This document shows, piece by piece, positions 53,630-61,884 of a stretch of DNA of 64,000 nt. A program made the position numbers and the translations under genes. Origin of the DNA: Billgrantia saliphila (GTDB lineage: Bacteria; Pseudomonadota; Gammaproteobacteria; Pseudomonadales; Halomonadaceae); assembly GCF_002930105.1 (NCBI RefSeq), contig NZ_PJRN01000001.1:372001-436000 (forward strand). The letters run 5' to 3'. Within the stretch, counting starts at the first letter, position 1; every line of letters begins with the position of its first letter. The notes beneath the pieces were generated by a model, which saw only the letters and a program-made list of their open reading frames with translations, was not told the origin of the DNA and searched no databases.

Positions 53630-55005
53630 TCAACTCAAGAGACTGAGTACGGTATGGGGTAGCTGGTTGGCCTGGGCGAGCAGTGTGGTGCCGGCCTGTT
53701 GCAACAGCTCTGCCTTGACGAGATTCGATGTTTCCTCGGCGTAATCGGCATCCATTATTCTGGACTGGGCAGACTCAGTGCTGATCCGCTGTTGGGTCAG
53801 GTTGCCGATGGCCTGCTCAAAGCGATTGTCAACGCACCGTACTGGCCGCGATAGGTGTCGACCTTTCCAAGTGCCTGATCGAAAGAGGTCAGGGCAGCAG
53901 CAGCGGTAGTCTGGCTGGCAAGGCTGATTGCGTTCAAACCGAGGGTTTCGCTATCGGCTGGAGTTGGCTCGATGGTTATTTTCTGAAGTTCGTCGCCAAA
54001 GCTGGCGCTGGTCACGATATCGATGGGCCCACTGGTAGGAATGGGCTTAGGTGGAGCGTAGTCGACCTCGAAGCGGTCGATCTGGAAAGCACCAGAGCCC
54101 GACATCAATACGAACAGCGGTTCGGATACATTCCGAATCACCAGTCTCTCCGTATAGTCCCCAGTGGGATGGCCATCTCCGCTATAAGCAATCGACATTC
54201 CGCGGAACTGCGTCGCCCTGACGCCGCCAGACTCGAAGAAGCCCGTTCCGTCGAGCAACATCGAGCCGTCGTAACGGGTTCGGGGGAGAAAGCCGTTATC
54301 CTCGGTAAAGATTTCGGCCTCCAATTCTTTCTCTGTCGTGACATTGCGGGGCGAATCGGCCCAGGTGCTGTCAGCTGACACCGAAGTACCGGCAATGTGT
54401 TTTCCGTCACGGCTGAAGAGTTGGATATCGTCATTCATACCATAGGAGTCGATCTCCATCACGAAGCCCGTTACTCCCTTGGGAATGAAGCCGAGGGGGA
54501 TCAAGCCGGAAGGTTGCGACTGGCCCAGCTTCGGGTCGATATCGAGCACGCTCTTGACGGTGCCCAGTTCGCGCGTGGCTTTCGGCTGTTGCGTTGGCGC
54601 TAGCGGATGCCTTTCGAATGCCTGGGTATCAAGCGCGATGCGATCCACTTCTTGGCGGACCTGCTGCCGGCATGGATAGCTTCGCGATCGGCCGAGAGAG
54701 GGTACCGCTGGCTGCCTGAACGGCCAGCTGCCTGCCGCGTTGCAGTAGGCCGTTGATACTCTCCAGCCCTCCTTCTGCGGTCTGCATCAGGCTGACGCCA
54801 TCATTGATGCCGCGCGCTATTTGCCGATTCGCTCGCTGGTTGGCATCCATGCGGTTGGCGATAGCCTGACCGGCGGATCGTCCTGGGCGCTGTTGATGCG
54901 CAGGCCGGAGGAGAGACGCTGCATGGCGATAGATAGGGTCGCCTGGGCCTTGCCGCGGTGAAGCTGGCTACTCTGGGCAGCCAGGTTGATATTGATGGCA
55001 ATCAC
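53630..55005 (-). pseudogene. Second flagellin gene, disrupted by several frameshifts
   Basis: Read in three frames, this minus-strand region encodes a whole flagellin: an N-terminal D0/D1 part (MQRLSSGLRINSAQDD, then GINDGVSLMQTAEGGLESIN), a central domain and the conserved C-terminus (FEQAIGNLTQQRISTESAQS, LLQQAGTTLLAQANQLP). At least four frameshifts lie at about 54873 (after SAQDDP), 54690-54700, 54660-54670 and 53830. The central region, 54648-53797, stays open for 283 codons and holds an inserted domain of about 180 residues I do not recognise. The start would be GTG at 55005. The gene is divergent from fliC and shares at least 33 identical bases with it. A decayed sigma-28 promoter lies upstream. 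Confidence 0.85.
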
Positions 55006-55284: not shown

Positions 55285-56493
55285 ATGTCCGTGATCAATA
55301 CTAACATCACTGCAATGATCGGTCAGTCGAACCTGGCCAAGTCGCAGAACTCTCTGTCTACCGCCATGGAGCGTCTCTCCTCCGGCCTGCGCATCAACAG
55401 CGCCAAGGACGACGCCGCCGGTCAGGCCATCGCCAACCGCATGAGCGCTCAGATCACCGGCCTGTCCCAGGCTCAGCGTAACGCCAACGACGGTATCTCC
55501 GTCGCGCAGACCGCCGAAGGTGCCCTGAACCAGGTCAACGACAACCTGCAGCGCATCCGTGAGCTGTCTGTCCAGGCTACCAACGACACCAACTCTGCCG
55601 ATGACCGCGCCTCCATCCAGGCCGAAATCGATCAGCGTCTTTCTGAGATCAACCGCATCTCTGAGCAGACCGACTTCAACGGCGTGAAGGTGCTTTCCAG
55701 CGACCAGAAGCTTTCCATCCAGGTCGGCGCCAACGACGGCGAAGTGATCGAAGTCAGCCTGCAGGAAATCACTGCCAGCACGCTGAAGCTCGCTAGCTTC
55801 AATGTGAATGGTCCGGATGGCGATCTGGCTGCGCTTGGCGCTGCTGGCGGGGCAACTGCAACAGCTGCCTTCGAAGAAGCCTATGGCACAGCAACCAGTA
55901 TCAACACCACTACAGTTGCTGCGTTCGATGCTGACCTTGCGACACAGCTTGGTGTAGGCGCTGCTGCCATTACTACTGGCACACAAGCCAAAGTTGATGA
56001 TGCCGGCAACTGGTATGTTGATGTGACTATCCAGACGGCAAATGCTGCCGAGCTCAACTCGCTGAAACTGCAGGGGATTGAGCTTGAGTCAGGTGTTGCC
56101 AAGACGTTCCAGGTTGCTCTGGATCCGGCTGATGCCAACATCACAACAACTGCCAACACTGCGGCATTTACTGTTGACGGTTCCAAGCTTGGCGCCAAGG
56201 ATCTTCTGAGTGGTGCTACCGCCAACCCGATGGCTGCTCTGGATTCCGCGCTCAAGCAGGTCGACGAGCTGCGTTCCGACCTCGGTGCCATCCAGAACCG
56301 CTTCGAGTCGGCGATCACCAACCTGCAAACCAACCAGACCAACCTGTCTGCCGCTCGGTCTCGCATCGAAGATGCCGACTACGCCGTTGAGGTCAGCAAC
56401 ATGACCCGCGCGCAGATCCTGCAGCAGGCCGGCACTTCCGTACTGGCCCAGGCCAACCAGGTGCCGCAGAACGTTCTGTCTCTCCTGGGCTAA
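55285..56493 (+). CDS. fliC: Flagellin
   Basis: This is the filament subunit. The 402-residue product has typical D0/D1 ends (MSVINTNITAMIGQSNLAKS, ERLSSGLRINSAKDDAAGQA; C-terminal RSRIEDADYAVEVSNMTRAQ, LAQANQVPQNVLSLLG) and a short Ala/Thr/Asn-rich central region between about residues 180 and 310. That region is more AT-rich than the ends, as is common for surface-exposed domains, and offers many Ser/Thr for O-glycosylation by the neighbouring enzyme. It has its own sigma-28 promoter and terminator. It is the only intact flagellin gene in the window. Confidence 0.97.
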   Translation: MSVINTNITAMIGQSNLAKSQNSLSTAMERLSSGLRINSAKDDAAGQAIANRMSAQITGLSQAQRNANDGISVAQTAEGALNQVNDNLQRIRELSVQATNDTNSADDRASIQAEIDQRLSEINRISEQTDFNGVKVLSSDQKLSIQVGANDGEVIEVSLQEITASTLKLASFNVNGPDGDLAALGAAGGATATAAFEEAYGTATSINTTTVAAFDADLATQLGVGAAAITTGTQAKVDDAGNWYVDVTIQTANAAELNSLKLQGIELESGVAKTFQVALDPADANITTTANTAAFTVDGSKLGAKDLLSGATANPMAALDSALKQVDELRSDLGAIQNRFESAITNLQTNQTNLSAARSRIEDADYAVEVSNMTRAQILQQAGTSVLAQANQVPQNVLSLLG

Positions 56494-56531: not shown

Positions 56532-56559
56532 AAGGCAGGCCATATGGCCTGCCTTTTTT
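56532..56559 (+). terminator. Intrinsic terminator after fliC
   Basis: The palindrome AAGGCAGGCCATATGGCCTGCCTT is followed by a T-run on the plus strand. It isolates fliC from the following glycosyltransferase gene. Confidence 0.92.
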
Positions 56560-56624: not shown

Positions 56625-59600
56625 ATGACTAAAAGAAATTTTAGATCGCCATCACGTTATGATCAGGACGTGTTCGGCGAAAAGCTAAGCATAAAAAAAA
56701 TGCGTGAAAAAGCAATAAGAGAGCCTGGAAATTACAAGTTGCGCAAGAGATTGGCAGAGGCGTTATTAAAAAAAGGGGATCTGCACCAAGCCATTGAATA
56801 TTTTACTGTCCTAGTTGAGGCAGGGCAGGCTGATTTTGAAGTTTTTGGCAAGTTATCTGAGGCCGAATATAAGCTTGGCAATGTGCAGCAAGCAGAAGCT
56901 CTTCTCATAAAAGCATTGGAAAGAAAGCCTGATTATGCTGAAGCGCTTCATGGCATGGCGTACTTGCATCATAAGCGGAGAGAAAATGAATCTGCTTTAG
57001 GGTTTGTAAATAGAGCGTGTGAAGTCCAGCCGGATAGCGCAGAATTTCTCTCCCTTAAAGGAATAATACTAGTGGCTCTGCATAGGCACTCAGAAGCCGT
57101 TGAGTGTTATGAGAAAGGCTTAAAAATTTCCCCTAGCTACTCGGGCTTATGGAATAATTATGGTAATGTGCTGAACGATCTTGGTCGACTGGATGAGAGT
57201 TTAATTGCTTATGAGAGAGCATTGAAGGCGCCTAATAGCACATTGCTCGCTTTTTCCAATCTTATTACCACGGCTCACTATCACCCTGAGTATAAAAAAG
57301 AAAGATTATTTGTAATGTGTTGTGAGTGGAATAAAAGATTCGCGCCGCTAGAAAGACCCACGAGACCATTTTCAAGTAATAAAAGCGCTGATAAAAAGAT
57401 TCGTATAGGCATGGTCTCCGATGGCTTTAGAAATCACCCAGTGGGAAGTATGATTATTTCTGCTTTAGAGGAGGTTGATAAAAAAGATTTTGAGATTTAT
57501 CTTTATGCCACATCAAATCATGTAGACCATATTACTAAGCGATTTCAGGATTTGGCATCTCTGTGGTTGCCAGTGGAACATCTCGACCATGGAGCTTTTG
57601 CAAGTCGGGTGGAAAATGATCAAATTGATATACTAATAGACTTGGTAGGCCATAATGCTGGCAATCGTATGTTGTCTATGGCGCTGGAACCTGCACCGCT
57701 GCTAGTAAAGTGGGTGGGTGGATTAATAAATACAACAGGTGTAGCGGCAATCGATTACCTTATCAGCGATGGGGTGGAAACTCCTGTAAATGAGGATGAC
57801 TTCTACGTAGAAAATTTAATACGGATGCCGGACGATTATATTTGTTATTCTGCTCCATCATATGCTCCTCCAGTTGGTTTATTGCCGGCTAAGGAAAGTG
57901 GATATATAACTTTCGGTTGCTTTAACAATGCAACTAAAATTAATAACGAAGTCTTGCAGAACTGGGCGCTATTGATGCATGAAGTGCCTGGTAGTCGCTT
58001 ATTTCTAAAAAGCTTACAATTTGATAGCGACGAGCTGAGTGGAAGAGTTATTTCTAGCTTGGCTATGCATGGAATAGAGTCAGATAGAGTGCGTGTGGAG
58101 GGGCCTTCTTCACATAGTGAGCTCTTGGCTTCCTATAATTTTATCGATATTTCCTTAGATCCATGGCCGTACTCGGGTGGATTAACTACGTGTGAATCTC
58201 TGTATATGGGCGTGCCTGTCGTTACTTTGCCTGGCCCTACTTTTGCAGGGCGGCACAGCGCTACCCATTTGATCAATGCCGGAATGCCGGAATTGGTTGT
58301 GGCAAGCTGGGAAGAGTATCGCCAGCGCGTGCTTGAATTGGCCTCTGATTTGGATAGTTTGGCTACCATTCGCCAACATTTACGCCAAATACTTCTCGAA
58401 TCACCGGTCTGTGACGCGCGCCGCTTTGCCCGCCATTTTACAGATGCCATGCGCGCGATCTGGCAGCGGCACTGTGAAGGCAAAGCGCCTGCTGCACTCA
58501 CCTTCAACAAGGAGGGTCAAGCGTGGTTCGAGGGTGAAGAGCAGCCCGTTGAAATCATTTACGCTCCTGATTGTGCTGACAAGGAGTCAAGTTTCAATTG
58601 GCAGCTGCCTGGAAAAATTATCACTATCGATAATAGTGCAAGGCTAGTATCGAATAACGGTCTCGATGAACTATTGTCTTTAAATGCGTTTGGGATCGTG
58701 GCTTTCGATCCAGCAAGTGGTATCAAAAATCCGCAGCGATTCCAAGATAGCGACAGCGTACAAGTCTTCTCGCACGCCGTTCTGGGCGATGGCGAGCCGG
58801 CAACTCTTTACGCCTGTTTGGACCCTGCTATGTCAGGTACTCTCATGCCGCTGCCTGCTGCTGAGATAGCCCAAGCGCAACAACCCGGCTGCCAAATTCT
58901 TACGGAATTATCCATTAATACCATTGCTCTCGACAGCATCGAAGGTCTGGAAAGCCTGGACTGGTTGATTCTCGATGAACTGAGCGACGCACTGACGATT
59001 CTCGAACATGGAAAAAAGGCCCTTGCGGACACATTGCTGGTCCAGGTTCGAGTAGCTTTCCACCCAACACATGAGCGTCAGCCTGCGTTGGGAAAAATTC
59101 AGGATTGGTTGACGCAGAACGGCTTTCAATTCTATCGATTGAATGATCTTCGCCATATCCATACAGGTAAGGCAGGGGGCGGAAATGAGAGCTTTTCTGG
59201 CACGGTTCTGGCATCTGCGGATGCGCTTTTCTTGCCCGATAACAGTCGCCTAAGCTGTTTGGGTGATGATGCCAAAACCAAGCTTGCTTTCCTGCTGCAT
59301 TCTGTATTTGGTGCCAAGGACATGACGTTCTCACTTCTCGATGAGATAGATGAAGAACTTGCTTCCCGCTACCTGTCTGCAGAAAAGAGACCTCTGGGTA
59401 GTCATGCGCGCCAAACCAGTAAGGCAGCGGTCAACGTGACTAAAGCGCGTTCGGAAGCGCAGCGTACTGAAGAGGAACAACTTCGTCTCCCTGATGCTCC
59501 ACACATGTCGAAAGCTGAGCGAAGTCTTTTTCAAGATGTCCTGAAGAATGCCAAGCGATACTTTGAGTTTGGTTCAGGTGGCTCAACTGTTTGGGCTGTC

Positions 59601-60059
59601 AAGATGGGTTTGACTGCGTACGGTGTCGAAAGCGACGCCAATTGGGTGTCTGCTCTCAAGAGTTCCTTAGGTGAACGCTGCCAGATCGAAGTCGTGGATA
59701 TCGGCCCGACACGAGAGTGGGGCTACCCAGTCTCCTTGGAGGCGGCAGGTAAATTCCAGGATTATAGTCGAGCCATTCTTGCTCATGATAGCCCGTTTGA
59801 TTTGATCCTGGTTGATGGGCGGTTTCGTGTCGCCTGTGTGATCACGGCCATTCAGCATCTACTGAGCCATCATGTGGATCCGAACGAGACACGCATCTTC
59901 ATACACGACTTTTGGGATCGTCCTGTATATCATGTCGTTCTTGATTTTCTGGAACCCATCGAAAGGGTCGATACGGCGGGCTTGTTTAAACTAAAGAAGA
60001 AGATAAAGGAGAAGGAGCTCCGTAAGGTTTGGCATGATTATGCAAGGCAGCCTGCCTAA
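56625..60059 (+). CDS. Chimeric TPR / GT41 glycosyltransferase / FkbM-like / methyltransferase, probable flagellin modification enzyme
   Basis: This 1144-residue protein has four parts. Residues about 20-190 are TPR repeats (for example LAEALLKKGDLHQAIEYFTV). Residues about 255-615 are a SPINDLY/OGT-like GT41 domain: IRIGMVSDGFRNHPVGS, IDLVGHNAGNR, FGCFNNATKINNEVLQNW and LDPWPYSGGLTTCESLYMGV. Residues about 620-885 resemble the C-terminal half of FkbM methyltransferases without a clear SAM-binding half. Residues about 960-1130 are a SAM methyltransferase-like fold (FEFGSGGSTVWAVKMG, FDLILVDGRFR, FIHDFWDRP). The first 1.8 kb is visibly AT-rich beside GC-rich neighbours, a sign of transfer. It lies just after fliC, so I infer O-glycosylation of flagellin, perhaps with sugar methylation. 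The start at 56625 has GGGTGA upstream. Confidence 0.85.
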   Translation: MTKRNFRSPSRYDQDVFGEKLSIKKMREKAIREPGNYKLRKRLAEALLKKGDLHQAIEYFTVLVEAGQADFEVFGKLSEAEYKLGNVQQAEALLIKALERKPDYAEALHGMAYLHHKRRENESALGFVNRACEVQPDSAEFLSLKGIILVALHRHSEAVECYEKGLKISPSYSGLWNNYGNVLNDLGRLDESLIAYERALKAPNSTLLAFSNLITTAHYHPEYKKERLFVMCCEWNKRFAPLERPTRPFSSNKSADKKIRIGMVSDGFRNHPVGSMIISALEEVDKKDFEIYLYATSNHVDHITKRFQDLASLWLPVEHLDHGAFASRVENDQIDILIDLVGHNAGNRMLSMALEPAPLLVKWVGGLINTTGVAAIDYLISDGVETPVNEDDFYVENLIRMPDDYICYSAPSYAPPVGLLPAKESGYITFGCFNNATKINNEVLQNWALLMHEVPGSRLFLKSLQFDSDELSGRVISSLAMHGIESDRVRVEGPSSHSELLASYNFIDISLDPWPYSGGLTTCESLYMGVPVVTLPGPTFAGRHSATHLINAGMPELVVASWEEYRQRVLELASDLDSLATIRQHLRQILLESPVCDARRFARHFTDAMRAIWQRHCEGKAPAALTFNKEGQAWFEGEEQPVEIIYAPDCADKESSFNWQLPGKIITIDNSARLVSNNGLDELLSLNAFGIVAFDPASGIKNPQRFQDSDSVQVFSHAVLGDGEPATLYACLDPAMSGTLMPLPAAEIAQAQQPGCQILTELSINTIALDSIEGLESLDWLILDELSDALTILEHGKKALADTLLVQVRVAFHPTHERQPALGKIQDWLTQNGFQFYRLNDLRHIHTGKAGGGNESFSGTVLASADALFLPDNSRLSCLGDDAKTKLAFLLHSVFGAKDMTFSLLDEIDEELASRYLSAEKRPLGSHARQTSKAAVNVTKARSEAQRTEEEQLRLPDAPHMSKAERSLFQDVLKNAKRYFEFGSGGSTVWAVKMGLTAYGVESDANWVSALKSSLGERCQIEVVDIGPTREWGYPVSLEAAGKFQDYSRAILAHDSPFDLILVDGRFRVACVITAIQHLLSHHVDPNETRIFIHDFWDRPVYHVVLDFLEPIERVDTAGLFKLKKKIKEKELRKVWHDYARQPA

Positions 60060-60069
60060 GGGGAGCTCC

Positions 60070-60465
60070 ATGTCCAAAGAGAAAATACCTGTACACGTTG
60101 TGATTCACGATCTCGTTCCCAAGCTCAAGGCGACTGAACGTTTCGTCAACAATACGCTCATGATAAGGAGTGAGCATTGTTACGATCCGGTCGAGAAGAC
60201 ACGGCTTGATGAGCTCAGTACCGAATTCGAACTCGAGATCGCCATGATTCGCTTGAATCTTGACCATCTGCTGAGGCGTTACGCGCACGAATTCTCTGGT
60301 GCTGTCGAAGGAAGAGAAGGAGCGGAAGGCGCCATGCTGACGCTGGATGAGAATGAAGCCGTCGCCATCGAAAGCATTCGACGACTCTACCAGCGCGCTC
60401 ACGAGTTGCAAACGGGACATGAGTGGAATGGTCCCGGACAGGGCCGCGACGAGCGGCCCATTTGA
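60070..60465 (+). CDS. Hypothetical protein next to the flagellin glycosyltransferase
   Basis: This 131-residue cytoplasmic protein is mostly charged and helical and has no family I recognise. The ATG at 60070 has GGGGAG 6 bp upstream and lies 10 bp after the glycosyltransferase stop, so it is cotranscribed and probably translationally coupled. It is not FliS: the size is near but the FliS pattern is absent. Position suggests a chaperone or accessory factor for the modification enzyme or for flagellin, but that is inference only. Confidence 0.7.
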   Translation: MSKEKIPVHVVIHDLVPKLKATERFVNNTLMIRSEHCYDPVEKTRLDELSTEFELEIAMIRLNLDHLLRRYAHEFSGAVEGREGAEGAMLTLDENEAVAIESIRRLYQRAHELQTGHEWNGPGQGRDERPI

Positions 60466-60477
60466 AATCCGTTATGC

Positions 60478-60987
60478 TTATTGGGTGGGGTTCAGCTCGG
60501 TAATCTTCAGCGTGGCTGACTGCATCTGGCTGCTGCCGTGTACGCCCACCCAGACGTTGTACATGCCGCTGGCCGGGTTCGGGAACATCACGACGGGGTC
60601 AAGGCTGTTGAAGTCATCGTTGCAGTACCAGCGACCATCGGGTGCATTGATGATCAAGGTAGTGTCGGAGGCGGACTGTACGGCGAAGTACAGCGGCATG
60701 CTGCCGGCGGTATAGTGCAGGTCGACATCCGGGGCGCTGGCCATGATGTAGCCGGTGCAGTTGGGTCCCAGCTTGGCGCTTACTTGGGTGGAGCCACCGG
60801 CCTGCAAACTTTGCGTCCAGGGATCCGGTGTGAAGCCTGCCTCGAGGTGGACGCTACCGTAGCTAGGGTCGCCTGACCAGTCGGGTTGTTGAGCCTGGGC
60901 CGTCAATGCGGAGAACGCCAAGGTGGCGCCAAGTACGATCGCGCCGATTCGAGCGGACCCGCGTGGCGAAAGAAGCGAATCTTTCAT
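60478..60987 (-). CDS. Exported hypothetical protein
   Basis: This 169-residue protein has a signal peptide (GAIVLGATLAFSALTAQAQ, cleavage after AQA near residue 32). The mature part is rich in Gly, Ser, Asp and Pro and beta-like, with two Cys (PNCTGY and WYCNDD). The segment YFAVQSASDTTLIINAPDGRWYCNDD resembles secreted beta-sandwich proteins of the PPC type found at protease C-termini, here alone. AGGAAA precedes the ATG. It is convergent with the gene ending at 60465. Confidence 0.72.
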   Translation of the reverse strand: MKDSLLSPRGSARIGAIVLGATLAFSALTAQAQQPDWSGDPSYGSVHLEAGFTPDPWTQSLQAGGSTQVSAKLGPNCTGYIMASAPDVDLHYTAGSMPLYFAVQSASDTTLIINAPDGRWYCNDDFNSLDPVVMFPNPASGMYNVWVGVHGSSQMQSATLKITELNPTQ

Positions 60988-61179: not shown

Positions 61180-61884
61180 TCAGGCTTCGCTATGCAACCT
61201 GGCGATTCCGCCTGTTGCCTCTATGGCCTTGGCCACGATGTCGTATTGGCTCAATTCCGGAGTGGCCGCGCGCGGTGATGACGACTTCTGAGTCCCGTCT
61301 CCTTCGTCCTGCTGGGAGGTTGCCGCGGTGTCGCCATGCTGCTGGCGGCTCAACTGGGCGAGTTCGAGCTGTGCGGTGAGCAGGTATTGGCGCGCGGAGG
61401 CCGCGACCTGGTGATCCTTGGGCGAGGGGTCGGCCGGTGCCAGGGCGGCACTGATGACTTGTTGCATCTTGCCGATGGTGGCGCGAGGGTCGCCGGGAAC
61501 GGGACCATAATCGATGGGAACCTGACCTGCGACGACGTAGCGTTCGCCATCCGGTCCGCGTACGTATTCGTAGCTGGCGCCGCCGGTGTATTGCCCTCCG
61601 GCGATCTGATGGGCCAACTCATGTTGACGCACTTCGCGATCGATGGCCTTCATGCGATCCAGTTGGCGAAGTTCCTGCTCGGTCAACGTCTCGCCATTGG
61701 GCTTTTGCGGCGCATCGCCCTTTGCCACCTTGCCGTTTGCCGCCTCGTGTGCCGCGCTGGTGGTATCGTTCATCCGTTCGGGCGCGCCCGGCTCACGTGT
61801 CACCTGGGAAGTTTCCGAAGTTTTGGAACCGGCCGTCGAGACGGAAGGGGGGTTAACGGGGCTGATGACGGTGGAGGAAAACAT
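61180..61884 (-). CDS. SprA-like putative metalloprotease (HExxH)
   Basis: This 234-residue protein has a Ser/Thr/Pro-rich N-terminus and a conserved region resembling the SprA-related (CJM1_0395-like) putative metalloprotease family: REVRQHELAHQIAGGQYTGG with a zinc HELAH at residues 88-92, then YVRGPDGERYVVAGQVPIDY and PGDPRATIGKMQQVISAALA. No signal peptide is apparent, so it is probably cytoplasmic. The family's function is not established to my knowledge. It stands alone near the motility region. The 192-bp gap 60988-61179 contains nothing I recognise. Confidence 0.8.
   Translation of the reverse strand: MFSSTVISPVNPPSVSTAGSKTSETSQVTREPGAPERMNDTTSAAHEAANGKVAKGDAPQKPNGETLTEQELRQLDRMKAIDREVRQHELAHQIAGGQYTGGASYEYVRGPDGERYVVAGQVPIDYGPVPGDPRATIGKMQQVISAALAPADPSPKDHQVAASARQYLLTAQLELAQLSRQQHGDTAATSQQDEGDGTQKSSSPRAATPELSQYDIVAKAIEATGGIARLHSEA

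Follow-up and report, generated by a model that had tools for sequence, protein, structure and literature searches.

What kind of enzyme is encoded directly behind the flagellin gene fliC of Billgrantia saliphila, and how might it alter the flagellin encoded next to it? We addressed this question in a 64,000-nucleotide stretch of contig NZ_PJRN01000001.1 (assembly GCF_002930105.1, positions 372,001 to 436,000; hereafter the window), where the gene concerned, gene A (56625-60059, + strand), encodes a protein of 1,144 amino acids. Judging from its domains, its linkage to flagellin genes and the exchange of C-terminal tails among its relatives, gene A probably specifies a cytoplasmic flagellin-modifying polyenzyme with a swappable tail that changes the chemistry of the glycan. 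The glycans on flagellin influence its export, cell motility, attack by phages and recognition by the immune system, and their diversification has mostly been described one gene at a time. A chassis encoded by a single gene, with exchangeable modules, a pseudoenzyme core and a range that reaches from Halomonas to Azotobacter and Bordetella, would allow such decoration to be read from sequence and would offer a natural parts kit for placing methyl, sulfo or extra sugar groups on one cytoplasmic protein. It also gives a testable claim on why selection keeps a degenerate FkbM fold.

Domain architecture of gene A

Four parts follow one another in gene A: tetratricopeptide repeats (TPRs), a GT41 glycosyltransferase domain, an FkbM-like module here called MID, and a C-terminal methyltransferase (MT). 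The reading frame is open to 60059 on the + strand from 56586, or from the ATG at 56625, which is preceded by a Shine-Dalgarno-like GGGTGA. Several Pfam TPR families match residues 1-240 (56625-57344), the presumed flagellin-binding part. The GT41 domain that follows (residues ~241-612, 57345-58460), a presumed O-glycosyltransferase, is certain, with a PF13844 score of 146.1 bits against a Pfam cut-off of 25, and its closest solved structures among PDB sequences are SPINDLY (7y4i, E 9e-76) and a TPR protein (5djs, E 1.2e-69). MID occupies residues ~613-925 (58461-59400) and MT residues 940-1144 (59442-60056). The presumed substrate, a flagellin of 402 amino acids, is encoded upstream on the same strand by fliC (55285-56493; PF00669 160.5 bits, PF00700 113.4 bits), and a small gene, gene B (60070-60465, + strand), starts 10 bp past the end of gene A, preceded by GGGGAG. 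An earlier, sequence-only reading of this DNA had described a single polypeptide joining TPRs, GT41, an FkbM-like part and a second methyltransferase after fliC and ahead of a small gene, and this order is borne out by Pfam, by hhalign and by the match of MT to PDB 3cvo. Its remark that the first half of the gene is AT-rich also holds: GC content is 41.4% in the TPR part and 44.5% in GT41, compared with 50.1% in MID and 50.9% in MT (61.7% for the whole window).

The last domain has the hallmarks of a Rossmann methyltransferase of the class I S-adenosylmethionine (SAM) type. A profile of seven MT rows found PDB 3cvo as its nearest match (E 2e-22), and in the predicted model MT superimposes on 3cvo with Z 22.6 and a root-mean-square deviation of 2.4 Å over 184 aligned residues. 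The glycine-rich motif E-F-G-S-G-G-S, part of FEFGSGGST in gene A, is kept in 7/7 close MT copies. The 3cvo protein, SPO2022 of Silicibacter pomeroyi, differs from gene A in being a 202-residue chain of unknown function with no polyenzyme part.

A full-length but degenerate FkbM-like core

The sequence-only reading had seen half of an FkbM-like module in gene A and had proposed a domain search for the FkbM and methyltransferase parts. This search gave a divided answer: Pfam matched neither MT alone nor, at E up to 0.1 and with PF05050 included, the window copy of MID scanned alone, whereas profile comparison recognised FkbM in MID and 3cvo in MT. Specifically, a profile of 27 MIDs aligned with two FkbM domains from relatives' tails with an hhalign probability of 99.9% (E 4.8e-33). 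The alignment spans 249 columns, which is the full length, and the half module was therefore rejected in favour of a full-length but degenerate FkbM fold. Against PDB sequences MID gave nothing meaningful (best E 0.75), and structure searches with a model of MID plus MT were dominated by MT matches; the fold assigned to MID accordingly comes from sequence profiles.

While MID aligns with FkbM methyltransferases (PF05050) over these columns, and FkbM domains above cut-off occur in some relatives' tails, MIDs differ in lacking the second family motif, K-x-D-x-[QE]-G, which in the nine FkbM tail domains extends to K-x-D-x-[QE]-G-x-E. Its lysine and glycine are present in 8/9 and 9/9 FkbM tail domains, but in only 0/81 and 2/81 MIDs at the same positions, the aspartate being kept in 81/81. 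Motif I (D-[IV]-G-A-N in FkbM) retains its aspartate in 79/81 MIDs, its asparagine in 69/81 and its glycine in 47/81, and none of the 81 has I/V, which is replaced by N, H or S; the copy in the window reads D-N-S-A, the glycine being gone. Other residues of MID are near-constant, namely the aspartates of F-D-P and L-D (81/81 each) and the aspartate that follows the latter (L-D-x-x-x-D, 73/81). From these motifs, loss of SAM binding in MID is likely. The pattern does not look like random decay, and selection appears to keep something, perhaps not methylation. An unlikely explanation is that MID is a repurposed active site that may bind another ligand, for example a nucleotide sugar or 3'-phosphoadenosine 5'-phosphosulfate; the near-invariant residues of its own, including those left in motif I, would fit such a site, but they may be structural. 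A bolder reading, which we hold with rather less than even confidence, is a dead FkbM that serves as the docking core of plug-in flagellin decoration. Tailoring enzymes would then be fused C-terminally or, in tail-less proteins, be supplied in trans through a conserved peptide, as a hexapeptide acyltransferase and a P-loop sulfotransferase-like protein (described below).

Two relatives (L068 and L071; individual loci are referred to by such numbers) carry, in the same protein, a second FkbM copy with D-[IV]-G-A-N-P-I-D-G behind the degenerate one.

Distribution and linkage to flagellin genes

MID was detected in 27 of the 90 genomes of the genus set (own genome included) and is therefore accessory. 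A scan of GTDB contigs with MID yielded 111 relatives, of which 80 were analysed; the genus and GTDB sets overlap in genomes, so that their counts are not additive. Relatives came from Halomonas, Vreelandella, Billgrantia, Chromohalobacter, Salinicola, Azotobacter, Pseudomonas, Bordetella, Achromobacter, Halochromatium, Marinobacter, Microbulbifer and others, and the named relatives of the source genome are mainly Halomonadaceae. A class-wide search found MID in 6/369 genomes, strongly only in the own genome and in a genome of the same family (G454).

Of the 80 analysed relatives, 75 have a flagellin gene on the same strand whose end lies no more than 2.5 kb upstream; for 68 of these the distance is 61-303 bp. 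The five exceptions are either near a contig end (L141, L145, L146) or have an opposite-strand flagellin gene upstream (L165, L170), and among the 26 loci fetched for the genus set one (L076) has its flagellin gene 2.8 kb off. GT41 enzymes elsewhere modify many proteins, and gene A could in principle act on another target, such as a lipid-linked sugar or a different flagellar or cytoplasmic protein, and merely adjoin fliC. The recurrence of same-strand flagellin genes in Halomonadaceae, Pseudomonas, Azotobacter, Bordetella, Achromobacter and Halochromatium argues against this, and we consider it very improbable.

Flagellin and gene A are separated in the window by a terminator-like hairpin with a T-run (56533-56559, + strand; folding energy -22.2 kcal/mol). 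Besides the window, 50 of 71 relatives have a hairpin with T-run in the corresponding gap (0.1 expected from mononucleotide shuffles), as detected by a custom hairpin/T-run scan; another scan program did not list the window hairpin. Because this element occupies the gap, gene A is probably expressed apart from flagellin and at a lower level.

The part ahead of MID is TPR-GT41, with GT41 in MID's own open reading frame, in 61 of the 80 relatives; 13 have GT4 without TPRs, five have TPRs with a sulfotransferase and one (L174) has TPRs only. The GT4 and TPR-sulfotransferase fronts were assigned by Pfam scans of L140, L156 and L166 and by homology for the rest. In L069 (9761-12645) and L109 (8158-12712), the gene A homologue consists of two open reading frames, split within the GT41 domain. 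Halochromatium glycolicum (L127, 12169-17860) carries downstream an 840-residue FkbM plus MT protein and a second TPR-GT41 protein of 1,044 residues. In L101 (13337-16306, - strand), a 989-residue TPR protein with no detectable GT41 or MID stands right after fliC, perhaps as another type of chassis.

Exchange of C-terminal tails on the MID tree

Behind MID, relatives carry no tail or tails composed of MT, sulfotransferase plus MT, FkbM, FkbM plus sulfotransferase, GT2, GT2-like plus MT, GT56-like, group-1-like glycosyltransferase plus glycerophosphotransferase-like, TPR plus MT, or other modules, with some of the GT2-like and group-1-like matches falling below the Pfam cut-off. Mapped onto a tree of 81 MIDs, the label of the front part changed three times, which is the minimum possible, compared with a mean of 17 for shuffled labels. 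Tail labels changed far more often, both in full (26 labels gave 45 changes, with a minimum of 25 and 57 after shuffling) and when coarsened to the first module (35 changes for six labels; minimum 5, shuffled 46, range 40-52). On the tree, neither sulfotransferases (12 changes against 11.4 with shuffled labels) nor tail-lessness (14 against 15.7, range 11-17) is distributed in a way that looks different from random, and proteins with MT cluster slightly (15 against 21). The shuffled-label control supports the contrast between front and tail, while the bare count of 45 is an overstatement, 25 changes being forced by the 26 labels.

Close pairs point the same way. Chromohalobacter marismortui (L130) and Chromohalobacter canadensis (L134) share 82% identity in the front and 86% in MID, with unrelated tails; Vreelandella alkaliphila (L108) and Vreelandella titanicae (L109) share 77% in the front (170 aligned residues, the gene being split) and 82% in MID, again with unrelated tails. 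L126 and L132 are 94%, 87% and 83% identical in front, MID and MT, respectively, and L132 has an extra sulfotransferase between MID and MT. In 56 of 63 relatives the tail was also richer in AT than the chassis it is attached to (window excluded; mean -7.6 points, Wilcoxon 2e-10, a statistic that ignores relatedness), as expected of acquired parts. These comparisons show that the tail was exchanged repeatedly while the front label hardly changed, with MID as the constant core of the family.

Proposed mechanism and sugar donor

GT41 enzymes are of the GT-B type, and gene A thus has the layout of the FlmG class, with TPRs N-terminal of a GT-B type glycosyltransferase. FlmG of Caulobacter crescentus, in the description available (PMC7591256), likewise combines N-terminal TPRs with a C-terminal GT-B glycosyltransferase acting on cytoplasmic flagellin, and its TPR domain binds flagellins. 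By this analogy, gene A would catch flagellin and then glycosylate it. The TPRs would hold flagellin in the cytoplasm prior to export, GT41 would add a sugar to Ser/Thr, most simply N-acetylglucosamine (GlcNAc) from UDP-GlcNAc, the pseudo-FkbM core would act as a docking or positioning module that no longer methylates, and the C-terminal methyltransferase would cap the sugar. Relatives that join this front to other tails would alter flagellin glycan chemistry by swapping the 3' end of one gene. If so, one recombination event would suffice for a lineage to alter the glycan on its flagellin, with phages or immunity as the presumable selective cause. Such a role was also put forward in the sequence-only reading, as glycosylation of flagellin by GT41 with a fused methyltransferase; the upstream flagellin genes and the enterobacterial parallels published in part (PMC4875605) favour it as a candidate function.

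FlmG differs from gene A, as far as described, in having 596 amino acids and TPR and glycosyltransferase parts only, and in using pseudaminic acid (PMC7591256), whereas the own genome has no match to NeuB. This protein of nonulosonic acid synthesis was found in 0/1 own genome by a search whose control was positive in 9/14 genomes, and nonulosonic acid was rejected as the donor. GDP-fucose was rejected as well, gmd having no match above cut-off in the own genome (two sub-threshold relatives). Since neither NeuB nor gmd is found above cut-off, UDP-GlcNAc appears the simplest donor, by an exclusion that is not exhaustive.

Several observations weigh against this polyenzyme with a core that is dead and tails that are exchanged. 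The best score of the GT41 part is to SPINDLY, a fucosyltransferase (plant SPY uses GDP-fucose), and this makes the donor ambiguous, although gmd has no above-cut-off match. The methyltransferase could act on protein rather than on sugar. The motif I glycine, missing from the window copy, is retained in the 47 MIDs noted above, and neither GT41 nor the TPRs are obligatory, given the 13/80 TPR-free GT4 fronts and the 5/80 fronts of TPRs plus sulfotransferase. The MID tree was a quick one with 28 of 78 forks weak, and assignment of the tail labels was partly manual, with that of L141 taken from a sub-cut-off Pfam match. In gene A itself the front is the AT-richer part, opposite to most relatives. 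Finally, the front may recombine too and need not be rigid, because GT41 and MID identities correlate weakly among MT-bearing proteins: correlations across 24 MT-bearing rows were 0.57 for GT41-MID, 0.55 for MID-MT and 0.21 for GT41-MT, and across 13 halomonad rows 0.03, 0.41 and -0.12, respectively.

Comparison with enterobacterial islands and other known systems

In SPINDLY and OGT, TPRs also stand ahead of GT41, and these proteins are not known to have methyltransferase or FkbM-like parts. The GT41 catalytic domain is common to these proteins (PDB 7y4i, 5djs, 2vsn) and gene A. Closer in composition are the GT41 enzymes (COG3914) of enterobacterial flagellin islands, which are of SPINDLY type and mostly have an AdoMet (SAM) methyltransferase in the same protein, according to the portion of the report available (PMC4875605). 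By the definition given there, gene A matches them in having GT41 and an AdoMet methyltransferase in one protein near fliC. Gene A could be an ordinary gene of this kind, with MID as an old methyltransferase domain and the tail differences as normal island turnover. Island GT41 enzymes other than eight GT41-11 proteins also contain methyltransferase domains, and the islands vary in their modification enzymes, again as described in part (PMC4875605). In those islands, however, the other modification enzymes are described as island genes, whereas in the present family a single polypeptide exchanges entire tails and keeps MID, with its conserved non-FkbM residues. No enterobacterium was among the 80 MID relatives listed out of 111, and enterobacterial proteins may still contain MID. 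On balance, this simpler explanation seems rather unlikely to us, and we retain a polyenzyme with exchangeable tails.

Neither a pseudo-FkbM core nor C-terminal module exchange is mentioned in the available part of the enterobacterial report (PMC4875605), a comparison made by description. The rfbC-fkbM flagellin clusters of Dickeya are described, in the part at hand, as consisting of separate genes (PMC7575072). A literature search by title and abstract, in which subscription journals were thinly covered, returned no pseudo-FkbM core, C-terminal tail exchange or C-terminal peptide. The sequence-only reading had taken the full combination to be new; it is partly published, because GT41 with methyltransferase domains is reported for enterobacterial flagellin islands (PMC4875605, as far as described), including near fliC, and what was not met in the literature searched is the pseudo-FkbM core and the exchange of tails.

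Tail-less proteins with a downstream gene pair

Thirteen of 106 rows, representing 11 distinct genomes (L072 and L180, and L078 and L159, being the same genomes), have no tail module and end, beyond a variable linker, in a short conserved peptide, [DE]-T-I-[SA]-x-x-[IL]-D-x-[LI]-[ML]. This expression was written after viewing the sequences and is hence descriptive. A pair of genes encoding a hexapeptide-transferase (185-192 amino acids) and a protein of 273-283 amino acids with a P-loop-like start lies downstream in 13/13 rows with the peptide and in 0/93 others, as scored by homology to the pair of L103. In addition, the hexapeptide gene occurs without its partner in L119, and an 812-residue protein of L116 includes a matching part. 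Two hexapeptide proteins were scanned with Pfam (L103 and L133) and both scored above cut-off for PF00132; their two partner genes, scanned likewise, had no Pfam match, and the label of sulfotransferase-like comes from a P-loop-like GRTGTT recognised by eye. A natural guess is that the peptide is a docking site for enzymes supplied in trans, but it may instead travel together with the two downstream genes as a single DNA segment.

A different C-terminal peptide, A-F-L-G-x-D-D, ends four tail-less proteins of GT4 type (L148, L150, L151, L152), each followed by a protein of 415-728 amino acids that in L150 weakly resembles DUF6716 (below cut-off), possibly a second pair of peptide and trans-enzyme.

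Gene B and neighbouring genes

Gene B encodes a helical protein of 131 amino acids, which the sequence-only reading had linked to gene A as its partner. Within the genus set it occurs in 30/90 genomes, own included (one match, in G055, being weak and partial), of which 17 have MID and 13 do not. Co-occurrence with MID exceeds chance (Fisher p 2e-4), but a dedicated partnership was rejected as stated in view of the 13 MID-less genomes. Eleven MID-less regions were fetched (G006 and G019 left out), and in seven of them gene B directly follows a flagellin gene; it thus belongs to flagellin loci. The predicted model has three long helices and short strands (pLDDT 85.5). Foldseek returned nothing for it at E 0.001 or better, and Pfam, searched up to E 1, yielded no family and only chance-level scores. 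FliS was rejected as an identity for gene B: PF02561 is not matched, and the genome's FliS match lies elsewhere (G000:C11:443056).

Upstream of fliC, the window holds an inverted second flagellin-like gene (53636-55005, - strand) that is broken across alternating frames, and an intact inverted counterpart is present in L113. Past gene B, genes for a secreted-looking 169-residue protein (60478-60987, - strand) and a 234-residue protein (61180-61884, - strand) recur in the loci of several relatives, often near gene B.

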